From positions 62,001-126,000 of the forward strand of contig NZ_BDQK01000003.1 of the NCBI RefSeq assembly GCF_003864295.1: DNA of 64,000 nucleotides, in the 5' to 3' direction. Under the pieces are notes generated by a model that did not search any database, was not told the origin of the DNA, and saw only the letters and a list, made by a program, of their open reading frames with translations. The position numbers were made by a program, and so were the translations under genes. Below are positions 8,277-55,526 of the stretch, one piece after another. Source of the stretch: Aphanothece sacrum FPU1 (lineage in GTDB: Bacteria; Cyanobacteriota; Cyanobacteriia; Cyanobacteriales; Microcystaceae). How positions within the stretch are numbered: the stretch's first letter is position 1; every line of letters begins with the position of its first letter.

Positions 8277-9674
8277 TTAAATAGCCTTAGAAAAAGATTG
8301 CAACTTACGAGTTTTAAGATAAGGATCAAAAACGGCTGCAATATTTCTGATAAGCCATCTTCCAGAATTAGTAACTTCTAATCGATCTGGAAATAAATGA
8401 ATTAACCCATCGGCTTCTAGAGGACGTAAATCAATCAATTCTTGAGCAAAATATTCATCGAAATCTAGCTCAAAATTAAGATTATATTTTTCTTCAATTC
8501 GTTCTTTATAAAGCTGTGACTGACACATTAATTCCATAATAACAGCGCGACGGATAATATCATCTCGCGTTAAACTTACACCTTTATCAATGGGAATTTG
8601 TTCAGCATCAAGAGCATTATAATACCCTTTTAATGATTTATCATTTTGGACATAAACATCTTGTAACATACTAATAGATGTTACACCAAAAGCAAACAAA
8701 TCAGATTCAGGTTTTGTGGTATATCCTTGAAAATTACGATGAAGTTTACCTTCTTTTTGAGCAATGGATAGTTCATCATTGGGTTTAGCAAAGTGATCCA
8801 TGCCAATATATAAGTAATCGTTTCGATTGAATTCTTCAATGGTCATTTGCAACATTGCTAGTTTTTCTGACACATTAGGAAGTTCTTCCACAGGTAGATT
8901 TTTTTGCGCTGGTTTTATCCAAGGAATATAAGCAAAATTAAAGACAGCAATACGATCAGGATTCAATTCAATGGTCTTTTTGACTGTCTTTTCAAAGGTG
9001 TTCCGATTTTGATAAGGAAGTCCATAAATTAAGTCCACATTGACACTATCAAACCCTGCTTCCCAAATCCAACTCATCACATTAAAGAGCATTTCTTCAG
9101 GTTGAACTCGGTTGATGACTTCTTGAACTTTAGGATCAAAATCTTGGATACCAAAACTGATCCGATTAAACCCTAAACTTCTCAAGAAAAAAATATAATT
9201 TTTGTCGATATATCTGGGGTTTATTTCAATAGAAATTTCTGCGTTTTCCTCAATATTAAAATTGTTAACTAACGTAGTAAATAACTGATCAATTTGAGAC
9301 TGGTTTAAATAATTAGGTGTTCCTCCACCCCAGTGAATTTGATTAACTGTGCGATCAGAAGAAATTAATTCAGCCGTCTGGTGAATATCTTTAGTTAAAT
9401 AATCTAAATAAGGGGGAGCAACTTTTTTGTTTCTAGTTATAATAGTATTACAACCACAAAAATAACAAGCACTCTCACAAAAAGGAATATGACAATAAAG
9501 AGAAATAGGTGTTTTTTTATGGTTTCCTGCCGCTATTCCTGCCCGAAAATCTCTTTCTCCGAAATTTTCTTTTAATTCCGTTGCAGGCGGATAACTGGTA
9601 TATCTAGGTAAAGATTTATCATATTTGTTCAATAAATCAGTGTCAAATATTACAGCAGGGGATTGGCAAATCAT
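8277..9674 (-). CDS. hemN: Oxygen-independent coproporphyrinogen III oxidase
   Basis: The 465-residue radical-SAM enzyme converts coproporphyrinogen III to protoporphyrinogen IX without O2. The cluster motif C-x3-C-x2-C is in HIPFCESACYFCGCN (~residues 65-80), preceded by the family start KYDKSLPRYTSYPPA. IHWGGGTPNYL is the SAM-binding glycine motif, and YGLPYQN and FNFAYIPWIKPAQ are HemN-specific. The ATG ending at 9674 is preferred; the frame extends to 9695 only with TTG. It lies downstream of the heme oxygenase gene on the same strand (156 bp apart), consistent with a low-oxygen tetrapyrrole unit. Confidence 0.93.
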   Translation of the reverse strand: MICQSPAVIFDTDLLNKYDKSLPRYTSYPPATELKENFGERDFRAGIAAGNHKKTPISLYCHIPFCESACYFCGCNTIITRNKKVAPPYLDYLTKDIHQTAELISSDRTVNQIHWGGGTPNYLNQSQIDQLFTTLVNNFNIEENAEISIEINPRYIDKNYIFFLRSLGFNRISFGIQDFDPKVQEVINRVQPEEMLFNVMSWIWEAGFDSVNVDLIYGLPYQNRNTFEKTVKKTIELNPDRIAVFNFAYIPWIKPAQKNLPVEELPNVSEKLAMLQMTIEEFNRNDYLYIGMDHFAKPNDELSIAQKEGKLHRNFQGYTTKPESDLFAFGVTSISMLQDVYVQNDKSLKGYYNALDAEQIPIDKGVSLTRDDIIRRAVIMELMCQSQLYKERIEEKYNLNFELDFDEYFAQELIDLRPLEADGLIHLFPDRLEVTNSGRWLIRNIAAVFDPYLKTRKLQSFSKAI

Positions 9675-9830
9675 AAAAATAACAACCTGTGTCAATAGTG
9701 AAGGTGAGTAAACTGTCTCAATTCTAGATTAATGACAGGAAAAGATAGGGAGTCTATGGGAATAAGAGGAGAACCTTGACCCATTTTTTGATGCTTTGTT
9801 TGACTCCCTAAAAATAAACACAAACTTAAA

Positions 9831-10595
9831 TTATGACTCGGCAGATACTAATTCAGTAGGCCGATGACCATGATGATGGTGATGATGTTCTGTGCTACCC
9901 GGAATCTCTTGACGAGTAATTAAGTCAAAAACATGATCCCCAATAGCAGCTTTAACATCAGCTTCTAATTCATGCACCACATCCCGATTAAGGTTAAAGG
10001 CATAATTAGCTTCAGCAACGATTTTTTGAGCGAGTTCTTCATCAACATCAATGGAGTTTAAACCATCCCGATAAACACCTTTAAAAGCCCGTCTATCTTC
10101 AGGACTTCCTAGTTCATTAAAGTCATAGAATTGTAGACCTTGGTTGGGAGGTAATTCTAATGCAGAACGAGCAATATTTTTTAAACTTTGGCCTCCTGAT
10201 AAATCCCCCATATAACGAACATAAGAATGGGCTACTAATAAGGCAGGTTCAGTATTAGCAACATCGTGAATACGTGCAACATAAGTTTTGCCTGCTTCAG
10301 ATGCTTTAATTTCATTACGCCAGTTTTCACCATAGTGGAATGCTAGGTCTTCTTCCAACTTTTTCTGACGGTTTAGTTGAGGAAAATATATCTTACTAAC
10401 AACTCGATGATCATGATGACGAAGTATTTCTTCTTCTAAGGAACTATAGAGAAAATAAAAGTCTGCCAACAGTTTACGAAATGGTTCTTTTTCTACAATA
10501 CCTTTAAGAAAACATTTGGTAAATGCCGTATTTTCTGCTAAGGTGTGAGAATGACTGGTTCCTTCTCGCAGTTGGGTCGCTAAATCATGACTCAT
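9831..10595 (-). CDS. ho2: Heme oxygenase, HO2-like, with histidine-rich tail
   Basis: The 254-residue enzyme opens heme to biliverdin, the precursor of phycobilins. The start is the ATG ending at 10595 (MSHDLATQL), with an AGGT site 8 bases upstream. Key features are the proximal-His region GTSHSHTLAENTAF (~11-25), the heme pocket YVRYMGDLSGGQSLKNIA (~130-147) and PEDRRAFKGVYRDGLNS. By memory of Synechocystis sequences, the SHTLAENTA, EANYAFNLNRDVVHELE and TRQEIPGSTE stretches match HO2 (micro-oxic) better than HO1. The C-terminus holds six consecutive His plus Gly-His (~237-244). It is divergent from acsF. Confidence 0.9.
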   Translation of the reverse strand: MSHDLATQLREGTSHSHTLAENTAFTKCFLKGIVEKEPFRKLLADFYFLYSSLEEEILRHHDHRVVSKIYFPQLNRQKKLEEDLAFHYGENWRNEIKASEAGKTYVARIHDVANTEPALLVAHSYVRYMGDLSGGQSLKNIARSALELPPNQGLQFYDFNELGSPEDRRAFKGVYRDGLNSIDVDEELAQKIVAEANYAFNLNRDVVHELEADVKAAIGDHVFDLITRQEIPGSTEHHHHHHGHRPTELVSAES

Positions 10596-10953: not shown

Positions 10954-12024
10954 ATGGTAGCGACTCTCCCTAGATCCCAGGAACTCAAAACAGGAACAAA
11001 AGCACCTGCGAAGGAAACTCTCCTGACACCGCGTTTCTACACCACAGACTTTGAAACAGCGGCCAGTCTCTCTTTAGCGGAACAAGAGACAGAGTTACAA
11101 GCGATGTTAACGGAAATGCGGAATGACTATAACCGTCATCATTTTGTCCGTAATGATGATTTTAAAGGGTGTTGGGATCATTTAGATGAAACCACAAGAG
11201 AAGGGTTTATTGAATATTTAGAACGGTCTTGTATTTCCGAATTTTCTGGGTTTTTGTTATTTAAAGAATTATCTCGGAAACTCAAAGATCGTAACCCTAT
11301 TTTATCAGAAATGTTTCATCTTATGGCTAGAGATGAAGCCCGTCATGCTGGTTTTTTAAACAAAGCGATGGCTGATTTTAATCTATCCTTAGATTTAGCC
11401 AAAGTGACCAAAACTCGTACCTATACATTTTTCCCTTTAGAGTGGGTCATTTACACGGTTTATCTCTCCGAAAAAATTGGTTATTGGCGTTATATTATTA
11501 TCTTCCGTCACTTAGAAAAGCATCCAGAAAAAGAATTTTATCCTATTTTCAAGAAGTTTGAGAATTGGTGTCAAGACGAGAACCGTCATGGAGATATTTT
11601 CAACGCTTTATTACGTTCTCAACCGAAACTTTGGAACACTTGGCAATCTCGGTTATGGAGTCGTTTTTTCCTCTTATCTGTGTTTGCAACCCATACGTTA
11701 ACGGTTCATGAAAGAGGAAGTTTTTATGAGTCTTTGGGTTTAAATCCTACTGAGTTTGATAAAGAAGTAATTCGCAAAACAAATGAAACTTCTGCCAGAG
11801 CATTTCCTAGTGTATTAGATGTAGATCATCCCGAATTTTATCCCCGTTTACAACGTTGTTCTGAGCGCAATCAAGAGATTAAAGCGATTCAAGAAAGTAA
11901 CACAAATAAAGTCCTTAAAACCTTGCGTAAACTACCTTTAATTGCGGGTATTGTTGGGGATTTATTACGAATTTACTTAATTAAACCCATTGATGCTGAA
12001 GCATTACGAGGAACAGTTCGTTAA
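10954..12024 (+). CDS. acsF: Mg-protoporphyrin IX monomethyl ester oxidative cyclase, ChlAII-like
   Basis: The 356-residue di-iron enzyme forms the isocyclic ring of protochlorophyllide. It has two E-x2-H iron motifs, MARDEARHAGF (~122-132) and CQDENRHGDIF (~207-217), together with ERSCISEFSGFLLFKEL. The start at ATG 10954 (MVATLPRSQ) replaces a TTG at 10942. From memory of Synechocystis homologues, segments such as FFPLEWVIYTVYLSEK and FATHTLTVHERG resemble the low-oxygen paralogue ChlAII (sll1874) more than ChlAI. It is divergent from ho2; in many cyanobacteria this paralogue, ho2 and hemN form one operon under ChlR. No MarR-type regulator gene is present in the window. Confidence 0.92.
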   Translation: MVATLPRSQELKTGTKAPAKETLLTPRFYTTDFETAASLSLAEQETELQAMLTEMRNDYNRHHFVRNDDFKGCWDHLDETTREGFIEYLERSCISEFSGFLLFKELSRKLKDRNPILSEMFHLMARDEARHAGFLNKAMADFNLSLDLAKVTKTRTYTFFPLEWVIYTVYLSEKIGYWRYIIIFRHLEKHPEKEFYPIFKKFENWCQDENRHGDIFNALLRSQPKLWNTWQSRLWSRFFLLSVFATHTLTVHERGSFYESLGLNPTEFDKEVIRKTNETSARAFPSVLDVDHPEFYPRLQRCSERNQEIKAIQESNTNKVLKTLRKLPLIAGIVGDLLRIYLIKPIDAEALRGTVR

Positions 12025-12038
12025 GTTAATTATGAGTA

Positions 12039-12070
12039 GTAGGTGGGCAATGCCCACCCTACGGTTTTTT
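12039..12070. terminator. Hairpin between acsF and the ParE-like toxin gene
   Basis: GTAGGTGGGCA pairs with TGCCCACCCTAC with one bulged base, and is followed by GG and six T residues (12065-12070). It would stop acsF transcripts on the plus strand. The stem is a copy of a dispersed repeat; a near-identical stem (GGTGGGCAATGCCCACC) follows leuS at about 25963. Confidence 0.65.
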
Positions 12071-12368
12071 ATTCATGATCATCAAATAAAATTCCTAAAT
12101 CTCGATACCCACTCACAACTCTAACGATTTCAATTTCTTCTTTGATTACCTGATATAAAATAATATAATTATCTAGAGGAATACCTCGTAAATTAGGCAT
12201 AATTTCTGTATAACTTCGTCCCATATTCGGAAAATTCACTAGATTTCTACACTTATCAGCAAATCGACGAATAAAGCTTTCACCTGCTTCTAAACTTTGC
12301 AGAGCAAAATAATCAGAAATCTCATCTAAATCACGGATAGCTTCCTCAGAAATGCTATATTTAGCCAT
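12069..12368 (-). CDS. RelE/ParE-family toxin
   Basis: The 99-residue RelE/ParE-superfamily protein begins MAKYSISEEAIRDLDEISDYFALQS. It has the FADKCRNLVNFPNMGRSYTEIMPNLRGIPLDNYIILYQV core and the terminal VSGYRDLGILF typical of ParE. It probably inhibits gyrase or cleaves mRNA when unchecked. The ATG ending at 12368 overlaps the antitoxin gene's end by 8 bases, the usual coupled arrangement. A TTG-initiated extension to 12395 is rejected. Confidence 0.85.
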   Translation of the reverse strand: MAKYSISEEAIRDLDEISDYFALQSLEAGESFIRRFADKCRNLVNFPNMGRSYTEIMPNLRGIPLDNYIILYQVIKEEIEIVRVVSGYRDLGILFDDHE

Positions 12369-12633
12369 GTAATTTTTCCTGACGTAAACAAGCAAATTTC
12401 TGTTCTAATTGTGCTATAACAGTTTCTCCATCAACCTTTTCACCTCTTTCCAATTGATTTAAACCAATTGCAACTTTTTGACGAGTTTCATCAAGCCATT
12501 TTTCATAATCTTGATCTTCTTGTTCTAACAGCTTTAAAGCGTGATCAATTACTTGCTGAACATTAGTATATTTTCCTTGCTTAATCTGAGATTCAATGAA
12601 TTCTTCTTGTTCTAAATTTAAGTGAATATTCAT
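12361..12633 (-). CDS. ParD/CopG-type antitoxin
   Basis: The 90-residue protein starts with a strand-helix-helix (IHLNLEQEEFIESQIKQGKYTNVQQVIDHALKLLEQ), which is the ParD ribbon-helix-helix pattern. A longer acidic-basic helical tail would wrap the toxin. It is first in the minus-strand pair and overlaps the toxin by 8 bases. It presumably represses its own promoter with the toxin. Confidence 0.82.
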   Translation of the reverse strand: MNIHLNLEQEEFIESQIKQGKYTNVQQVIDHALKLLEQEDQDYEKWLDETRQKVAIGLNQLERGEKVDGETVIAQLEQKFACLRQEKLHG

Positions 12634-12858
12634 ATATTAATAATGGTCAGGTTGAATAGAAGTATCTGAACTCTATTTTAACACAACTTTTTGGAGATAT
12701 CTGTTTTTAGGGAGTCGTTAAACTGATTAAAATTAAAATGACGGAAATGGGGATAAATTTCGATTTGTAAACAATTAGCAGCCTGTTGACAAATATGGAG
12801 TTAGAATAAAGTTATTAGACCTGTAATAAAAAAATTAACTTTGTTTATAATTGACATC

Positions 12859-48828: not shown

Positions 48829-49104
48829 ATGCGCTTTGATTGGGATGATCAAAAAAGCCAGCTACTCAAACAAAAAAGAGGGTATTTTCTCGAAGAAATA
48901 GCAGTTATTTTTACAGTCTCTTATGTAGAGAGGATGAAAAATGATGATCCAGAACAATTTATTGCCATTGGTTATTGTAATAATAATTTATTGTCTGTTA
49001 TCTATGAAATTCGTTATGATGAGGAGGGAGAATATATCTGGTTAGTTACCTATTGGAAAAGTACCAAACAAGAAAGTAAACTTTATGAACAATATTTCAA
49101 TTGA
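48829..49104 (+). CDS. BrnT-like (DUF497) toxin
   Basis: The 91-residue protein begins RFDWDDQKSQLLKQKRGYFLEEIAVIF, the BrnT-family pattern F-x-W-D-x-x-K. It ends with a strand-rich VTYWKSTKQESKLYEQYF. BrnT toxins are RelE-like ribonucleases. It overlaps the following antitoxin by 20 bases. The family match is clear but somewhat divergent. Confidence 0.75.
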   Translation: MRFDWDDQKSQLLKQKRGYFLEEIAVIFTVSYVERMKNDDPEQFIAIGYCNNNLLSVIYEIRYDEEGEYIWLVTYWKSTKQESKLYEQYFN

Positions 49105-49366
49105 TGAACTTGAAGAAAAAATTGAAGCAGGGGAAGAAATCATTGATCGCTATTTTGATGTTTCGACAACGCGAGTAGGAACCCCTCATGAAATGATACC
49201 AAGAAGAAAGCAAAATTTGATAATAACGAATATTGATCTTCCTCAATCTATGGTAAACGAACTTGATACAATGGCAACGGAATTAAATATTAATCGTGAA
49301 GCAGTTATTAAAATGATGCTGAGACGTAGCCTTGATGAGCATCATATTGCTAAAAATAGATTATAA
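49085..49366 (+). CDS. CopG/BrnA-type antitoxin
   Basis: The 93-residue protein has an N-terminal toxin-binding part (IEAGEEIIDRYFDVSTTRVG). A C-terminal ribbon-helix-helix follows: LIITNIDLPQSMVNELDTMATELNINREAVIKMMLRRSLDEH. It would neutralise the BrnT-like toxin and repress the operon. Its ATG lies inside the toxin gene. Confidence 0.78.
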   Translation: MNNISIDELEEKIEAGEEIIDRYFDVSTTRVGTPHEMIPRRKQNLIITNIDLPQSMVNELDTMATELNINREAVIKMMLRRSLDEHHIAKNRL

Positions 49367-50586: not shown

Positions 50587-50738
50587 TAAAGTTTATCTGT
50601 TCTTGTAAAAGTGCATCCAGACCAATTAGGACTTTTATGTTATCTTGGCCAAGATAGTTAAAAAATTCTGACAAAGATTTTGTCAAATTGTTGAAACTTG
50701 TGTTATGCTAGTATAGGTTGATGAAAAGGAAAATCAAC

Positions 50739-50809
50739 GCGGGTGTAGTTTAGTGGTAAAACCTTAGCCTTCCAAGCTAATGATAGGGGTTCGATTCCCC
50801 TCACCCGCT
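50739..50809 (+). tRNA. tRNA-Gly (anticodon TCC)
   Basis: The 71-base cloverleaf has acceptor GCGGGTG/CACCCGC, anticodon stem TTAGC/GCTAA with loop CTTCCAA (anticodon TCC), and T-arm AGGGG-TTCGATT-CCCCT. The discriminator base is T, and CCA is not encoded. Pol III-like boxes are not relevant in bacteria; the fold alone supports the call. Confidence 0.95.
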
Positions 50810-51027
50810 TTCTCTCAAACCTTGTTAAATCAAGACTTTCAGTAAAATGTTAGATTTTGTTAAAGCCTTTGATTAACTAAAATTAACTTCATTTTGACAG
50901 TCAATTGACAGTCAAAATAAATCATCAATTAACTGTCAAAAAGGTAAAAAAGCTCCTACAACAATACGGACAAACCATAAGACACAAAAACTAATAATCA
51001 CAATTCCAATGTCAATTAAAAAGTACA

Positions 51028-51250
51028 TTAGTTTTTTTTCCGAGAGGTGTCATAGGGGACAAATCCTGTTCCCGTTTTGGCTAAATAAAACTCAACCGCT
51101 CTAACTTGTCCCATAAGCAATTCTATTTGTGATTCAAACTGGCGATGCTTGGATTCCAATAAGCGATCGCGTTCTTCTTGTGATCGTTTGTTAGAAAATT
51201 GGGTTGTACCAAGCGATCGCTGTGTGGATTTGGCGATCGCTGTTTGGGTT
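51028..51250 (-). pseudogene. Fragment of a coiled-coil-type protein gene with HIP1 repeats
   Basis: The minus strand has an open frame without an ATG at its beginning, ending at TAA 51028-51030. It encodes TQFSNKRSQEERDRLLESKHRQFESQIELLMGQVRAVEFYLAKTGTGFVPYDTSRKKN. It lies downstream of the ribbon-helix-helix-type gene. Copies of the HIP1 octamer about 20 bp apart (51213, 51233, 51253, and a degenerate one at 51272) run through its 5' part, and a TAA precedes it. The other part of the 50810-51291 gap shows nothing. It is probably a degraded small gene. Confidence 0.45.
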
Positions 51251-51291
51251 TAGCGATCGCTGTTGGATTTAGCTATCGCTGTCACTGTACC

Positions 51292-51687
51292 TCATGAGAA
51301 AGCTTCAGCCGTTTCCTTTTTTGTTTTCTTCTCCGGCTGCACCCGATTATCCGCGATAACTCGACGCACAAATTCTTTAGCATCGTTAGCGGTTCTTCCT
51401 TCTGGAAATTTACTTAACATTTCCTCCAGTGGTTGAGGAGCTTCAAGAAAAAACTCATCTTTATTTGTCAACTCAGACAAAACCTTAGCTAAATCCTGAA
51501 CAGTTGACTCTAAGGAAGTTAACCGTTCTTCCCAGTTAGGATTCCGAGCATTATCAGTTAATTCATAAGATTCCAACATTTCTAAAAGGAGTCGTTTCGC
51601 CGTCAAGTTTAAAGATTCATTATTTTCAACGTAAGTTTTTAAAAATTCCTCTTGATTTTTATTGATACTGAATGTGATTATGGGCAT
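51292..51687 (-). CDS. Ribbon-helix-helix-type small DNA-binding protein (candidate)
   Basis: The 131-residue protein begins PIITFSINKNQEEFLKTYVENNESLNLTAKRLLLEMLESY, a strand followed by two helices as in CopG/Arc/ParR-type proteins. The rest is a coiled-coil-like segment (EERLTSLESTVQDLAKVLSEL) and a basic tail. An AT-rich direct-repeat array abuts its start codon (51693-51830), suggesting it binds there. No ParA/ParM-type partner is seen. It could be a plasmid-derived partition or copy-control protein; the fold is inferred by eye. Confidence 0.55.
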   Translation of the reverse strand: MPIITFSINKNQEEFLKTYVENNESLNLTAKRLLLEMLESYELTDNARNPNWEERLTSLESTVQDLAKVLSELTNKDEFFLEAPQPLEEMLSKFPEGRTANDAKEFVRRVIADNRVQPEKKTKKETAEAFS

Positions 51688-51692
51688 ATAAA

Positions 51693-51830
51693 CCTTTAGA
51701 TAGTAGTTTAGATATATAGTATAAAATCTAAACTTTTTATATATCTAAGGTATCATCTAAATTATTTTATATATATAAACTATTATCTAAACTATTTATA
51801 TATCTAAATAATTATCTAAACTATTTAGAT
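51693..51830 (-). repeat. AT-rich iteron-like array
   Basis: ATCTAAA(C/T)-type units begin at 51726, 51743, 51755, 51785, 51802 and 51814. They alternate with spacings near 17 and 12 bases (29-30 bp overall period). Inverted copies (GTTTAGAT, ATTTAGAT) lie at 51706 and 51823. The array is directly upstream of the minus-strand gene at 51292-51687. It resembles an operator or centromere-like (parC/iteron) site. Confidence 0.7.
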
Positions 51831-51914
51831 GTTGTGTTAAAACCTAGAATTAGCGGTAATAATAAAAACGGGGTCAAACTGACCCCCACTTAAAACACTC
51901 CTAAAGTATATCCG

Positions 51915-52241
51915 ATGACACCAGAAGAAAGACTAAGCCAAATTGAAGCTTTATTTGCTACGGCAGCTAAATATACTACCCGTCACGAAGCGGCGATCAC
52001 TCGTCAAGAAGAAGCGATCGCACGTCAAGAAGAAGCGATCGCACGTCATGAAGAAGTGATCGTACGTCATGAAGAAACCCTTGAAAGATTAGACAATCAA
52101 GTGATTGACTTAAATCTTAAGTTAGCTGAAACAGTTGAGATTATGCGAGACTTAGCAGTTTATCAACGGCAAAGTCAAGAAGAAATACAACGCATTTGGC
52201 AATACTTAATGAGTCAAACCAGCAACGGTCACAACAGTTAA
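51915..52241 (+). CDS. Small coiled-coil protein with heptad-size repeats
   Basis: The 108-residue helical protein contains four tandem 7-residue units (AITRQEE-AIARQEE-AIARHEE-VIVRHEE). These are encoded by 21-bp repeats that carry the HIP1-like GCGATCGC. The C-terminal part DLNLKLAETVEIMRDLAVYQRQSQEEIQRIWQYLM resembles other small cyanobacterial coiled-coil proteins. Function unknown. A perfect 22-bp palindrome follows the stop codon. Confidence 0.6.
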   Translation: MTPEERLSQIEALFATAAKYTTRHEAAITRQEEAIARQEEAIARHEEVIVRHEETLERLDNQVIDLNLKLAETVEIMRDLAVYQRQSQEEIQRIWQYLMSQTSNGHNS

Positions 52242-52247
52242 TTATTT

Positions 52248-52269
52248 ACTGAGGGGAATTCCCCTCAGT
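52248..52269. repeat. 22-bp perfect palindrome after the coiled-coil gene
   Basis: The arms ACTGAGGGGAA and TTCCCCTCAGT form a perfect hairpin 6 bases after the stop codon. No T-run follows, so it may be a 3'-end hairpin rather than a canonical terminator. Confidence 0.5.
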
Positions 52270-52326
52270 ATTAAAGAGGCGTTACAGGCTCTCCGTTCAT
52301 AATGAGGTAAAATGTAACAGCCTGCT

Positions 52327-52392
52327 ATGGCTCAAGTAACTCAACAGGATATTCGTAACTGGTTTGCTCATTGCTGCTACTGTACCTCATGA
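52327..52392 (+). pseudogene. Gene fragment cut by the IS4-type element
   Basis: A 21-codon frame reads MAQVTQQDIRNWFAHCCYCTS and ends one base before the IS left end (52394). It looks like the beginning of a larger protein, possibly a transposase, but the identity is not certain. The sequence to the right of the IS is from a different gene. Confidence 0.35.
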
Positions 52393-52393
52393 G

Positions 52394-53666
52394 CTGGCGT
52401 GGGGACATGAAACCCTGAAAGCCTTACCAGATGACGAAAAGAGCAAAACATGGTAAAAAGAAAATGTTCTTTTTTTAGCGATCGCCGTCTAAACCCAAAA
52501 TGTTACCAGAAATTTATAACAACCATTTAACAAAGTATCTGAAAAAATCGGAATATTTAATACTGTTAATCATGATAGAATTAGTGCAAGTATATAGGAA
52601 AATTAGGTTTTATGAGTTAGCTAGTTATTTTCCCAGTCCCATTTTATTTGAAAGTAAGAGAAAAAAGTTAAAACGGTTTTTCGAGATTCCTTGTTTGACA
52701 ATTGAAGGAGTATGGATACCTATCATAAAACAGTGGTTAAAGCAATCATTTAGTACAGGAGATGTCTTACATATTGCCATAGATAGAACCCAATGGGGGT
52801 TGATTAATATTTTGATGGTAAGTCTGGTAATTGATAATAGAGGAATTCCCTTATATTTTGAGTTGCTAGATCACATCGGTAATAGTAACTTTGACACACA
52901 GAAAAGTATATTAGCCCGAATATTACTCTTTCTAAAAGAATATAAAATAGTTGTCTTAGGGGATAGAGAATTCTGCTCAGTTGAACTAGCAAAATGGTTA
53001 CATGGACAAAAAAGAGTTTATTATGCACTCAGATTGAAGAAAAGCAACTATATTGAAGTAGAAAAGGAAATGTGGACGCGACTAAAAGATTTAGGATTAT
53101 CTTCAGGAATGTCTTTATTTTATCAAGGAGTTAAAGTTACGAAAACAAAAGGATTTATAGGCAGTAATATAGTGGCGAAATGGAAAAAGAAGTATAGAGG
53201 AATAGAGACAAAAGAAGCTTGGTTTATTATCACAAATTTAACCAGTATTGATGAGACGATTGACGCTTATAAAAAGAGATTTTGTATTGAGGAAATGTTT
53301 CGGGATTTTAAGAAAGGTGGTTATGATTTAGAAAGAACGAAATTAACAGGACATCGCCTTACTTCCTTAATTATATTGATTACTCTAGCTTATTCAATGG
53401 CAACATTTTCTGGAAAAATTATTAAAGAGAAAGGATTGGCAAAATATGTGGGGAGAGTCAGAAAAAACAAGAAAATGCGACGGAGACACAGTAACTTTTA
53501 TATCGGTCTTCATGGAAAAGATTGGGTTGACTCTTGTGATTTATTTACCGTTGAAGCCCAGGCATTAATGCAATTAAGCCCCGAAAAACGCGCCTATTAT
53601 CGACGAGGACGACGGGCTATATCCCTGATTAAGTCTAGCTTATAGATTTTTATGTCCCCACGCCAG
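52394..53666 (+). mobile_element. IS4-family insertion sequence (1273 bp)
   Basis: The ends CTGGCGTGGGGACAT (52394-52408) and ATGTCCCCACGCCAG (53652-53666) are perfect 15-bp inverted repeats around one transposase gene. No target duplication is seen: the left flank ends CCTCATGAG and the right flank begins ATTGTCACG. The flanks belong to different genes, which suggests a deletion or recombination after insertion. Confidence 0.9.
52500..53645 (+). CDS. IS4-family DDE transposase
   Basis: The 381-residue transposase has catalytic Asp95 (HIAIDRTQWG), Asp155 (VVLGDREFC) and Glu264. It shows the IS4 YREK signature: Tyr257, Arg260, Glu264 and Lys271 in DAYKKRFCIEEMFRDFKKGG. The C-terminus is rich in basic residues. 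The frame is intact, so the element may still be active. Confidence 0.92.
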   Translation: MLPEIYNNHLTKYLKKSEYLILLIMIELVQVYRKIRFYELASYFPSPILFESKRKKLKRFFEIPCLTIEGVWIPIIKQWLKQSFSTGDVLHIAIDRTQWGLINILMVSLVIDNRGIPLYFELLDHIGNSNFDTQKSILARILLFLKEYKIVVLGDREFCSVELAKWLHGQKRVYYALRLKKSNYIEVEKEMWTRLKDLGLSSGMSLFYQGVKVTKTKGFIGSNIVAKWKKKYRGIETKEAWFIITNLTSIDETIDAYKKRFCIEEMFRDFKKGGYDLERTKLTGHRLTSLIILITLAYSMATFSGKIIKEKGLAKYVGRVRKNKKMRRRHSNFYIGLHGKDWVDSCDLFTVEAQALMQLSPEKRAYYRRGRRAISLIKSSL

Positions 53667-53714
53667 ATTGTCACGACTACTCAGTTTAAAAAAGATTTAA
53701 AACGAGTTAACAGA
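53658..53714 (+). pseudogene. N-terminal remnant of a YafQ-type toxin gene
   Basis: Immediately at the IS right end the frame reads RQIVTTTQFKKDLKRVNRR, the characteristic YafQ/RelE-type toxin N-terminus. After this the sequence diverges (DKLRYNERSKKF) and the remaining ~70 residues are missing. The native start codon was replaced by the IS end. No antitoxin is present. Confidence 0.65.
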
Positions 53715-53768
53715 AGAGATAAATTAAGATATAATGAACGAAGTAAAAAGTTCGCAACAAGAAAAATT

Positions 53769-54308
53769 ATGACAACTACCGCAGATGATGTATGGCAATT
53801 ATTAGCTGAATTAGTGACAGCCCAAAAAGAAACGGAGCGACGCTTTCAAGAAACAGATCGCAAAATTCAAGAAGTTAGTAAGCAAATAGGAGCTTTAGGC
53901 GGTAAATGGGGGCGTTTTGTGGAAAAAATGGTGGCTCCTGCCTGTGAAACTTTATTTTTTAATAGAGGTATTCCCGTTCATCAAGTTAGTCAACGAGTCA
54001 AAAAACGTCTGGATGGTAAAACGTTAGAAATTGATGTCTTAGTGACTAATGAAGATCATGTTTTAGTAGTAGAAGTTAAGAGTAGTTTAGGTGTGGATGA
54101 TGTTAAAGAATTGAGCGATGATTTAAGCAAATTTCGCCAATTCTTCCCTGAGTATAACGAAAAGCAAGTATATGGGGCGGTGGCAGGAATTGAAATAGAA
54201 GAAGGTGCAGATAAATATGCTTATCGTCAAGGTTTATTTGTGTTGGTACAATCGGGAGAAAATGTCGCTATTCTTAACGATGCTGAGTTTCAACCAAAAG
54301 TTTGGTAG
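53769..54308 (+). CDS. DUF3782-type protein with PD-(D/E)xK nuclease-like core
   Basis: The 179-residue protein starts at ATG 53769 (MTTTADDVWQLLAELV); a longer frame upstream is a chimera with the toxin remnant. An N-terminal helix (AQKETERRFQETDRKIQEVSKQIGALG) precedes a core with TLEIDVLVTNEDHVLVVEVKSSLGVDDVKEL, where D..ExK form the nuclease-like motif. This family is abundant in cyanobacteria and its role is not established. Confidence 0.75.
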   Translation: MTTTADDVWQLLAELVTAQKETERRFQETDRKIQEVSKQIGALGGKWGRFVEKMVAPACETLFFNRGIPVHQVSQRVKKRLDGKTLEIDVLVTNEDHVLVVEVKSSLGVDDVKELSDDLSKFRQFFPEYNEKQVYGAVAGIEIEEGADKYAYRQGLFVLVQSGENVAILNDAEFQPKVW

Positions 54309-54360
54309 TGTGATCTACAAAAATAAGAGCGATCGCACTCAACAAAAAAGCGATCGCACT
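54309..54360 (+). repeat. HIP1 octamer pair
   Basis: Two GCGATCGCAC(T) units occur within 27 bases after the DUF3782 gene. HIP1 is a hyper-abundant cyanobacterial octamer. There is no gene in this short gap. Confidence 0.7.
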
Positions 54361-54425
54361 TTAAGCTGTCTTGGCGATCTCTGCTAGTTTGATTAGTCCT
54401 TATAATTCATAATTCATAATTTATT

Positions 54426-55526
54426 GTGGTATTTTCATTTGACCTTCGGGGCCATTGCTCCCAAACGAAAGCTAGAGTAGGGGTTTGGCATACACCTCAT
54501 GGATTGGTGGAAACGCCCCGATTTATGCCTGTGGGAACCCTAGCGACCGTTAAAGGACTCACTCCTGCTCAACTCGAAACGACTGGGGCCCAGATGATTT
54601 TAGCCAATACTTATCATCTCCATCTACAACCTGGAGAAAGCATTATTCAACAAGCTGGGGGACTGCATCGGTTTATGGGTTGGAACGGCCCAGTTTTAAC
54701 TGATTCTGGAGGGTTTCAGGTCTTTAGTTTGAGTGCATTACGAAAAATTAAAGAATTTGGGGTGACGTTTCGTTCTCCTAGAGATGGACGCATCATTGAA
54801 TTAACCCCTGAACGTTCCATCCAGATTCAAAATGCTTTGGGGGCCGATGTGATTATGGCCTTTGATGAATGTCCTCCGGGAGATGCTGATTATGCAACGG
54901 TAGCTGCTGCTACAGAACGCACCTATCGTTGGTTAGAACGGTGTATCACTGCCCATCAACGTCCCGATACACAAGCTTTATTTGGTATTGTGCAAGGGGG
55001 AACCTATCCAGAATTACGACAAAAGGCCGTAAATGCTTTAAAAGAGTTAAATTTGCCTGGTTATGCCATTGGGGGGGTCAGTGTGGGGGAAGACCCCGCC
55101 TTAGTTCGAGAAATTGTCCAATTTACCGCCCCTTTGTTACCTTTTGAGAAACCCCGTTATTTGATGGGGGTGGGGACTTATAAAGAAATGGCTATGGCGA
55201 TCGCGTCTGGGATAGATTTATTTGATTGTGTGATTCCTACTCGTTTTGGTCGTCATGGTACAGCTTTAGTAAAAGGTGAGCGTTGGAACCTGAAAAATGC
55301 TCCATTTCGGGAAGATTTTACCCCTCTAGATGATAGTTGTGCTTGTTATACCTGTCAAACCTTTACAAGAGCTTATTTGAATCATTTGATACGGTCACGG
55401 GAGATGTTAGGGTATATTCTTTTATCATTACACAATATTGCCGAGTTAATCAGATTTACTCAACAGATTCGAGAGGCGATTTTAAGCGATCGCTTTGTGA
55501 CGGAGTTTGCTCATTGGTTAAGTTAA
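54426..55526 (+). CDS. tgt: tRNA-guanine transglycosylase
   Basis: The 366-residue TIM-barrel enzyme inserts preQ1 at position 34 of GUN-anticodon tRNAs. Conserved segments are [50 protein letters not shown] (catalytic Asp region), [22 protein letters not shown] and [13 protein letters not shown]. The zinc site shows [17 protein letters not shown]. It begins at GTG 54426. The next gene's ATG follows the stop directly. Confidence 0.96.

Follow-up and report, generated by a model that had tools for sequence, protein, structure and literature searches.

Introduction

Ribbon-helix-helix (RHH) proteins with repeat arrays are already well known. StbA of R388 has a helix-turn-helix (HTH) fold, and Par of pSK1, presented in a reference title as a single-gene partitioning system, is an HTH protein with upstream repeats and a coiled coil. 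The omega protein of pSM19035 is an RHH protein that binds arrays over its own promoter and acts as both regulator and centromere binder (PMC9499535), and the targets of StbA are two sets of five 9-bp direct repeats close to the promoter of its own gene (PMC3098194).

We analyzed a 64,000-nucleotide stretch of the genome of Aphanothece sacrum FPU1 (the window), in which an array of ATCTAAA-type heptads adjoins a 131-aa ORF (Table 1), and compared it with these systems. The locus is like omega in having a small protein, here with a probable RHH-like N-terminus, and 7-bp units in both orientations at its own gene; however, omega has a ParA partner and contiguous WATCACW heptads (PMC9499535), whereas the window has no ParA-type motif and its heptads are spaced and of another sequence, with exact copies 12, 17 or 30 bp apart and one-mismatch copies 7-19 bp apart. 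A pairing of an RHH ParB (omega or ParG) with ParA was not found either. The ParA-type Walker motif KGG[VIT]GK[ST] is absent from all six frames of the window, in keeping with an earlier note on this DNA that saw no ParA partner, and among 742 ORFs at 41 loci of relatives it occurs in L098_4 and two NifH proteins, that is, outside NifH at 1 of the 41 loci. The same note had named ParR-parC among the known layouts of this kind; that assignment falls because the motor gene is wanting, a Pfam scan of the six ORFs adjoining the array having found no actin-like motor.

The window does have the anatomy of StbA and pSK1 Par, namely one protein, repeats at its own promoter and no motor, the likeness being one of anatomy alone. 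StbA is a single protein with own-promoter repeats for which the relevant part of PMC3098194 annotates no par motor, but its repeats are 9-bp direct repeats 2 nt apart and its operon is linked to conjugation (PMC3098194). KfrA of RA3 and R751 has a DNA-binding head, a helical tail and autoregulation, much as proposed for the window protein, but it has a longer coiled coil and a different head, and such arrays do not figure in the part of PMC7821693 that describes it. The Arc-like regulators of cyanobacterial CAST are small RHH proteins and predicted regulators of mobile elements; they are 53-72 aa long and encoded upstream of cas12k, compared with 131 aa for the window protein (PMC9938897).

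The repeat array and the 131-aa ORF

Table 1. Features of the array locus, in positions of the window
Feature	Position	Strand	Basis or remark
Array of ATCTAAA-type heptads, both orientations	51695..51830	.	9 exact ATCTAA/TTAGAT, 13 with at most one mismatch
ORF, 131 aa, RHH-like N-terminus and helical C-terminal part	51292..51687	-	ORF list; relatives
RHH-like region, residues 1-42	51562..51687	-	alignment of relatives; low-confidence model; weak RHH-structure profile matches
Predicted long helix, residues 52-75	51463..51534	-	low-confidence model
Best promoter-like site, 10/12	51811..51840	-	overlaps distal array end
Divergent ORF, 108 aa, beyond array	51915..52241	+	ORF list
Interspersed repeat	51212..51298	+	overlaps final bases of the 131-aa ORF; two other genome matches

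Exact ATCTAA occurs on the + strand at 51726, 51743, 51755, 51785, 51802 and 51814, with successive spacings of 17, 12, 30, 17 and 12 bp, and TTAGAT at 51696, 51708 and 51825. These nine copies lie in 142 bp that are 84.5% A+T; 20,000 first-order Markov sequences built from the array stretch itself gave a mean of 0.67 copies and a maximum of 6. Outside the array no 150-bp stretch carried more than three exact copies, and the pattern of three spaced ATCTAA had no second match in the 4.49-Mb assembly. TRF reported a period-29 array at 51707-51827. With one mismatch allowed, 13 ATCTAAA heptads lie between positions -143 and -14, counted from the start codon, at spacings of 10, 12, 7, 10, 12, 7, 11, 12, 7, 10, 19 and 12 bp, some of which are chance matches because the stretch is so A+T-rich. 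Between the last heptad and the ATG there are 7 bases. The array thus bears out the earlier description of ATCTAAA-type units that abut the start codon of a small gene with an overall period of 29-30 bp (a 30-bp spacing is seen), with perfect copies that follow the 12/17-bp alternation exactly. Within the gene's own coding sequence there is no exact ATCTAA or TTAGAT. Promoter-like sites in the region occurred at chance frequency (4 found, 4.0 expected).

The protein begins with a putative strand, IITFSI, followed by predicted helices at residues 10-21, 28-40 and 52-75, the last of which may possibly form a coiled coil. The AlphaFold models behind these helices were poor, with a mean pLDDT of 53.5 for the protein alone and 49.2 with ten Microcoleus-type relatives; the monomer models contained helices 10-21 and 28-40 at low confidence and no assigned strand. 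A profile of 25 relatives gave eight weak matches to solved structures, led by HP0222 (1x93) at E 0.019 and including the CopG-family protein 6xrw, the DUF1778 protein 6ajm and 2kke; we take 1x93 and 2kke to be RHH folds. Pfam RHH models matched at best 3 of 25 members, at E 0.015 or worse. From these weak matches and models, an RHH fold is likely for the N-terminus. The strand-helix-helix protein proposed in the earlier note is in keeping with the helices predicted after IITFSI and with the weak RHH profile matches; the models, with mean pLDDT below 54, assign no strand in the monomer.

Neither Pfam nor NCBIfam returned a family above cut-off for the 131-aa protein, and PHROGs gave no match better than E 0.09, which leaves standing the suggestion that it is undescribed. 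A literature search by titles and abstracts found no description of the family, which is no proof of absence from print, and among the papers listed for the word TGTCTACA/TGTAGACA none had an evident bearing on it. The gene is solitary, as had been proposed, with a single, chromosomal-looking copy in the 4.49-Mb genome.

Surroundings of the gene

The divergent 108-aa ORF beyond the array is a possible second target. It carries a 21-bp tandem repeat with GCGATCGC, presumably the HIP1 word, which is translated as a peptide repeat. Other neighbours of the 131-aa gene are a tRNA-Gly and a DUF3782 protein, and further ones are genes that we take to be lipA and tgt. A palindromic repeat at 50888-50941, consisting of TTTTGACAGTCAATTGACAGTCAAAA and a third partial unit, lies just after the tRNA-Gly. 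We considered integration at this tRNA, and a repeat search of 50600-54500 found, at the settings used, no copy of the tRNA end. We also weighed integration between two copies of the 15-mer ACTGTACCTCATGAG, at 51284 and 52379, and rejected it: with four exact copies in the genome and longer matches at two other places, this word resembles the terminus of an interspersed repeat.

An insertion sequence (IS) with 29-bp inverted ends and a DDE transposase occupies 52394-53666, about 700 bp upstream of the 131-aa gene. Its left end recurs at 19 or more other genomic sites, and a 24-bp near-copy of 51275-51298 stops exactly at that end. Some 2 kb from the array, at 48829-49366, a BrnT-like ORF (PF04365, E 6.8e-6, below cut-off) overlaps an ORF with a weak RHH_1 match (E 0.0017), likely a toxin-antitoxin pair of the BrnT/BrnA type. 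The 131-aa gene itself does not sit in a toxin-antitoxin operon: the sole ORF of at least 40 aa within 130 bp after it on the - strand has 43 aa, and the BrnT-like pair is 2 kb off on the opposite strand.

With respect to replication, tblastn with 17 element proteins gave no match in the window, and no VapE domain was found in the A. sacrum genome. These searches revealed neither a cognate initiator, as an iteron origin would have, nor a replication gene under the same control, as in CopG-type copy control.

Relatives of the protein

Relatives were collected by whole-genome searches with the protein as query and next with profiles. In 50 genomes of the family, including its own, matches were found in only four others, the best with 46% identity over 70 residues. 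With a 7-row profile, 46 of the order's 388 genomes (own included) had matches, at 59 places with E <= 0.05, the weakest of which may be chance; we studied 43 of the 59, and 16 were dropped at region choice. A 25-row profile matched 11 of 292 genomes of the phylum at E <= 0.001, nine belonging to the same order (own included); three of these matches (one same-order, two others) fall in long reading frames of 1,161, 5,452 and 416 aa and may also be chance. Early weak genome matches to the window protein were mostly unrelated frames.

The paucity of close relatives bears on whether gene and array are the functionless remains of an element in decay. The overlap of the 3' end of the ORF with an interspersed repeat and the IS upstream would suit such an origin as well; we nevertheless regard it as quite unlikely, the ORF being open and the array dense when erosion of both would be expected without use.

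The protein of locus L092 has close relatives in Microcoleus, Tychonema and other cyanobacterial assemblies. A relative in the C-terminal part is encoded on plasmid pANA03 of Anabaena sp. 90, and distant relatives lie on Nostoc plasmids, all plasmid matches having come from two relatives used as queries. Used directly as query, the window protein matched nothing in plasmids or phages (tblastn), viral contigs or genome contigs; three relatives as queries gave nothing in viral contigs, three gave nothing in plasmids and one gave nothing in phages. The search for gene and array in cyanobacterial plasmids that the earlier note suggested gave nothing with the window protein as query and, with relatives as queries, found family members on Anabaena and Nostoc plasmids, pANA03 having an array of its own motif.

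Arrays beside relatives differ in sequence by lineage

In each of 43 genes (the window gene and 42 relatives at 40 loci) we took the most frequent 7-mer of the upstream 250 bp and set its count against 60 shuffles. In the window gene this 7-mer, counted with one mismatch, was ATATAAA, at 14 places compared with 9.3 in shuffles, none of which reached 14. The upstream count exceeded every shuffle in 18 of the 43 family genes, L073 among them on a low-complexity 7-mer, and in 17 of 41 when the tandem copies L095b and L096b were left out; for other ORFs at the same loci this held in 8 of 255 upstream regions. No array was evident upstream of L088, L089, L090, L098, L101, L108, L109 and L110, and in L078 and L079 the sites were inside the gene only.

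The motifs were compared in 14 members, having been picked after inspection. Upstream of the window gene there are 8 copies of ATCTAAA; the 13 other members have none there. AATCTAT was found 10 times in L071 and 4 times in pANA03, and ACCTATA 6 times in L075 and 3, 2 and 1 times in L071, L072 and L092. Other members had TAGGTAAA (3 in L072), TGTCTAATA (3 in L074), GTAAACG (4 in L087) and GTGTACC (3 in L077), and L076 had GGATACAATTGTATCC as two palindromic units. TGTNNACA occurs 4-10 times upstream in each of L080, L085, L106, L092 and L103. At least three upstream copies of TGTNNACA were present in 21 of the 28 SFR-strand members compared with 0 of 13 others, the tandem copies L095b and L096b being left out; this is a post hoc grouping in which members are counted as they stand, kinship included, and in which the fused L101 is placed with SFR although its SFR strand lies inside the protein, outside the first 16 residues. 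The repeats beside homologues thus appear to be conserved as an architecture that differs in sequence by lineage. Conservation beside homologues, on which the earlier note had staked its case, holds in this sense only, because the sequence itself is not kept and some homologues have no array.

One pair of relatives points to the protein part that goes with the motif. The pANA03 and L085 proteins are identical at 155 of 176 positions in the C-terminal part and at 13 of 51 in the N-terminal part; upstream of L085 there are nine TGTNNACA and no ATATAGAT/ATCTAGAT, and upstream of pANA03 there are none and eight, respectively. In this pair, motif and N-terminal domain seem to change together. We treat it as a single suggestive case because L085 and L092 have a motif in common despite N-terminal identity of only 13 of 52.

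Array motifs within coding sequence

The 27 SFR-grouped members without L101 contain 83 copies of TGTNNACA in their coding sequence, compared with a mean of 24.6 and a maximum of 36 in 500 synonymous-codon shuffles, and a mean of 3.1 and a maximum of 9 in codon-order shuffles. The excess reflects codon choice, because synonymous shuffles retain the amino acids; the synonymous mean lies far above the codon-order mean, which shows that the protein sequence, too, is in line with the motif. The window gene has no such intragenic sites. The intragenic copies translate to Ser-Thr or Val-Asp and make up much of ST- and VD-rich linkers. The pANA03 gene has eight intragenic copies of its own motif compared with 2.0 in synonymous shuffles, and none of 2,000 shuffles reached eight.

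A second gene of the Microcoleus-type elements, c19, has five TGTNNACA in L093 and six in L103, counts that 8 and 0 of 2,000 synonymous shuffles equaled, respectively. The c19 product of L093 (2088-2627) has a VD-rich linker made from intragenic sites and a hydrophobic stretch near the C-terminus that might be a membrane anchor; it had no Pfam match at E <= 0.01. We also observed 12-bp repeats, TCTCTAGATGAT and TCTGAGGAAGTC, in the coding sequence of a neighbouring gene family, c31 (L072:10945-13212 and L071:10396-11337), possibly another array within a gene; one c31 member had a weak RHH_9 match.

Mobile-element context and function

The 742 ORFs of the 41 loci were clustered by single linkage and examples were checked by Pfam. 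A primase-helicase gene (c1) occurs at 18 of 41 loci and a recombinase (c3, c12 or c25) at 20 of 41. Primase examples matched DUF5906, D5_N or VapE; of the other examples, two (L074_6 and the c3 protein of Microcoleus) were without a Pfam match and the L101 integrase was below cut-off. In L082, L101 and L107 the family gene lies between two nifD parts (NCBIfam) with an integrase-like gene present. Elements that interrupt nifD have been described with hypothetical proteins, and no such regulator is mentioned in the part of PMC4874684 that covers them.

Several further arrangements were observed at these loci. The nifD-interrupting element of L107 encodes a KilA-N protein (11916-12698, E 8.5e-17), and L101 has a similar one. 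L101 also has an RHH-like domain fused with a GIY-YIG-like domain (9881-10429, E 7e-4, below cut-off), and L071 has one in a protein with ASCH and HTH matches (9146-10201). The gene order is tandemly repeated in L095 (9,055 bp) and L096 (7,112 bp), which could reflect tandem integrated elements or an assembly effect. In L072 (9729-10519), TTGATCC/GGATCAA units at 9729, 9775, 9797, 9807 and 9817 and at 10435, 10445, 10467 and 10513 flank an RHH-like gene in mirror fashion, an arrangement reminiscent of the termini of a small mobile unit.

The earlier note had derived the window system from a plasmid. Relatives do lie in integrative elements and plasmids, but VapE is absent, and the 17 element proteins and the plasmid collection gave no match; judging from its relatives, the window gene is probably better called a relative of genes found in integrative elements and plasmids.

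In several Microcoleus-type elements the family gene directly follows the primase gene, and a second cluster of their motif lies before or in the first genes of the primase run. This arrangement, with primases confirmed by Pfam, would suit a parent protein that acts on iteron-like sites to set the expression or firing of the primase-helicase, the window copy having lost its replicon. We consider such replication or copy control very unlikely: 23 of the 41 loci have no c1 primase (some of the contigs are short), the A. sacrum genome is without VapE and no origin was identified.

The same context raises the possibility of segregation without an NTPase, in which the array would be centromere-like and the protein would cluster or tether DNA, as proposed for StbA and pSK1 Par, with the window holding the leftover of a lost element. 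A gene and array without a motor, the near absence of non-NifH ParA-type motifs at the loci, the company of replication and integration genes, and the precedent of StbA with repeats near its promoter (PMC3098194) all agree with this, and the many sites, intragenic and in a second gene, would suit a large nucleoprotein complex. We nonetheless hold it to be unlikely. The window copy lies in a large contig with no part of an element found beside it, so there is nothing evident to partition; the pANA03 relative coexists with an annotated ParG partition gene; counting the other way, the loci extend over no more than 20 kb, and in some cases just 3-8 kb, so that a distant motor gene could escape notice.

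We favor, as moderately probable, a sequence-specific RHH protein for which the array is its own operator, the window gene being an orphan relative of regulators in integrative elements and plasmids. RHH dimers would bind ATCTAAA heptads about one helical turn apart, the helical C-terminal part would hold neighbouring dimers together, and the bound dimers would cover the promoter so that the gene represses itself; the related regulators of integrative elements and plasmids have such an array beside the gene that encodes them and, in Microcoleus-type elements, another one elsewhere. We infer the RHH fold, DNA binding, repression and descent from comparison of sequences. The operator reading is supported by an array far beyond chance that adjoins the start codon, by the arrays beside 18 of 43 family genes compared with 8 of 255 controls, by the lineage-specific motifs, the association of SFR with TGTNNACA and the pANA03-L085 pair, and by the second motif clusters and the omega precedent. 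Counting against the operator reading are the poor models, the structure match at only E 0.019, the array-less relatives, the promoter-like sites at chance frequency and the sites deep within genes, which are superfluous for simple promoter repression. Because relatives carry intragenic sites, a larger nucleoprotein complex is possible, as with StbA on R388 (PMC3098194). Self-repression is the safer reading than partition and the most economical.

Significance

The window copy appears to be a plain, solitary example; the interesting part is the linked difference of strand and motif, together with the intragenic arrays of the relatives. More tentatively, and with doubt outweighing confidence, the relatives may constitute an undescribed cyanobacterial RHH family in which protein and array evolve as a matched, exchangeable pair and the array extends into the gene of the protein itself; the linker (repeats of the ST, VD or SIQDID type) would then be a by-product of selection on DNA. 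The assembly might then be an NTPase-free centromere-like complex or a master-repressor complex of integrative elements, including those in nifD, and the window would hold a domesticated solitary unit.

The family offers many natural pairs of strand and motif, including a plasmid pair that differs in both with the remainder conserved, so that reading of DNA by the strand is directly testable. Binding arrays embedded in genes, if real, would clearly exemplify how selection at the DNA level shapes a protein linker. The three relatives inside nifD-interrupting elements provide a candidate regulator for a long-studied system of developmental excision.
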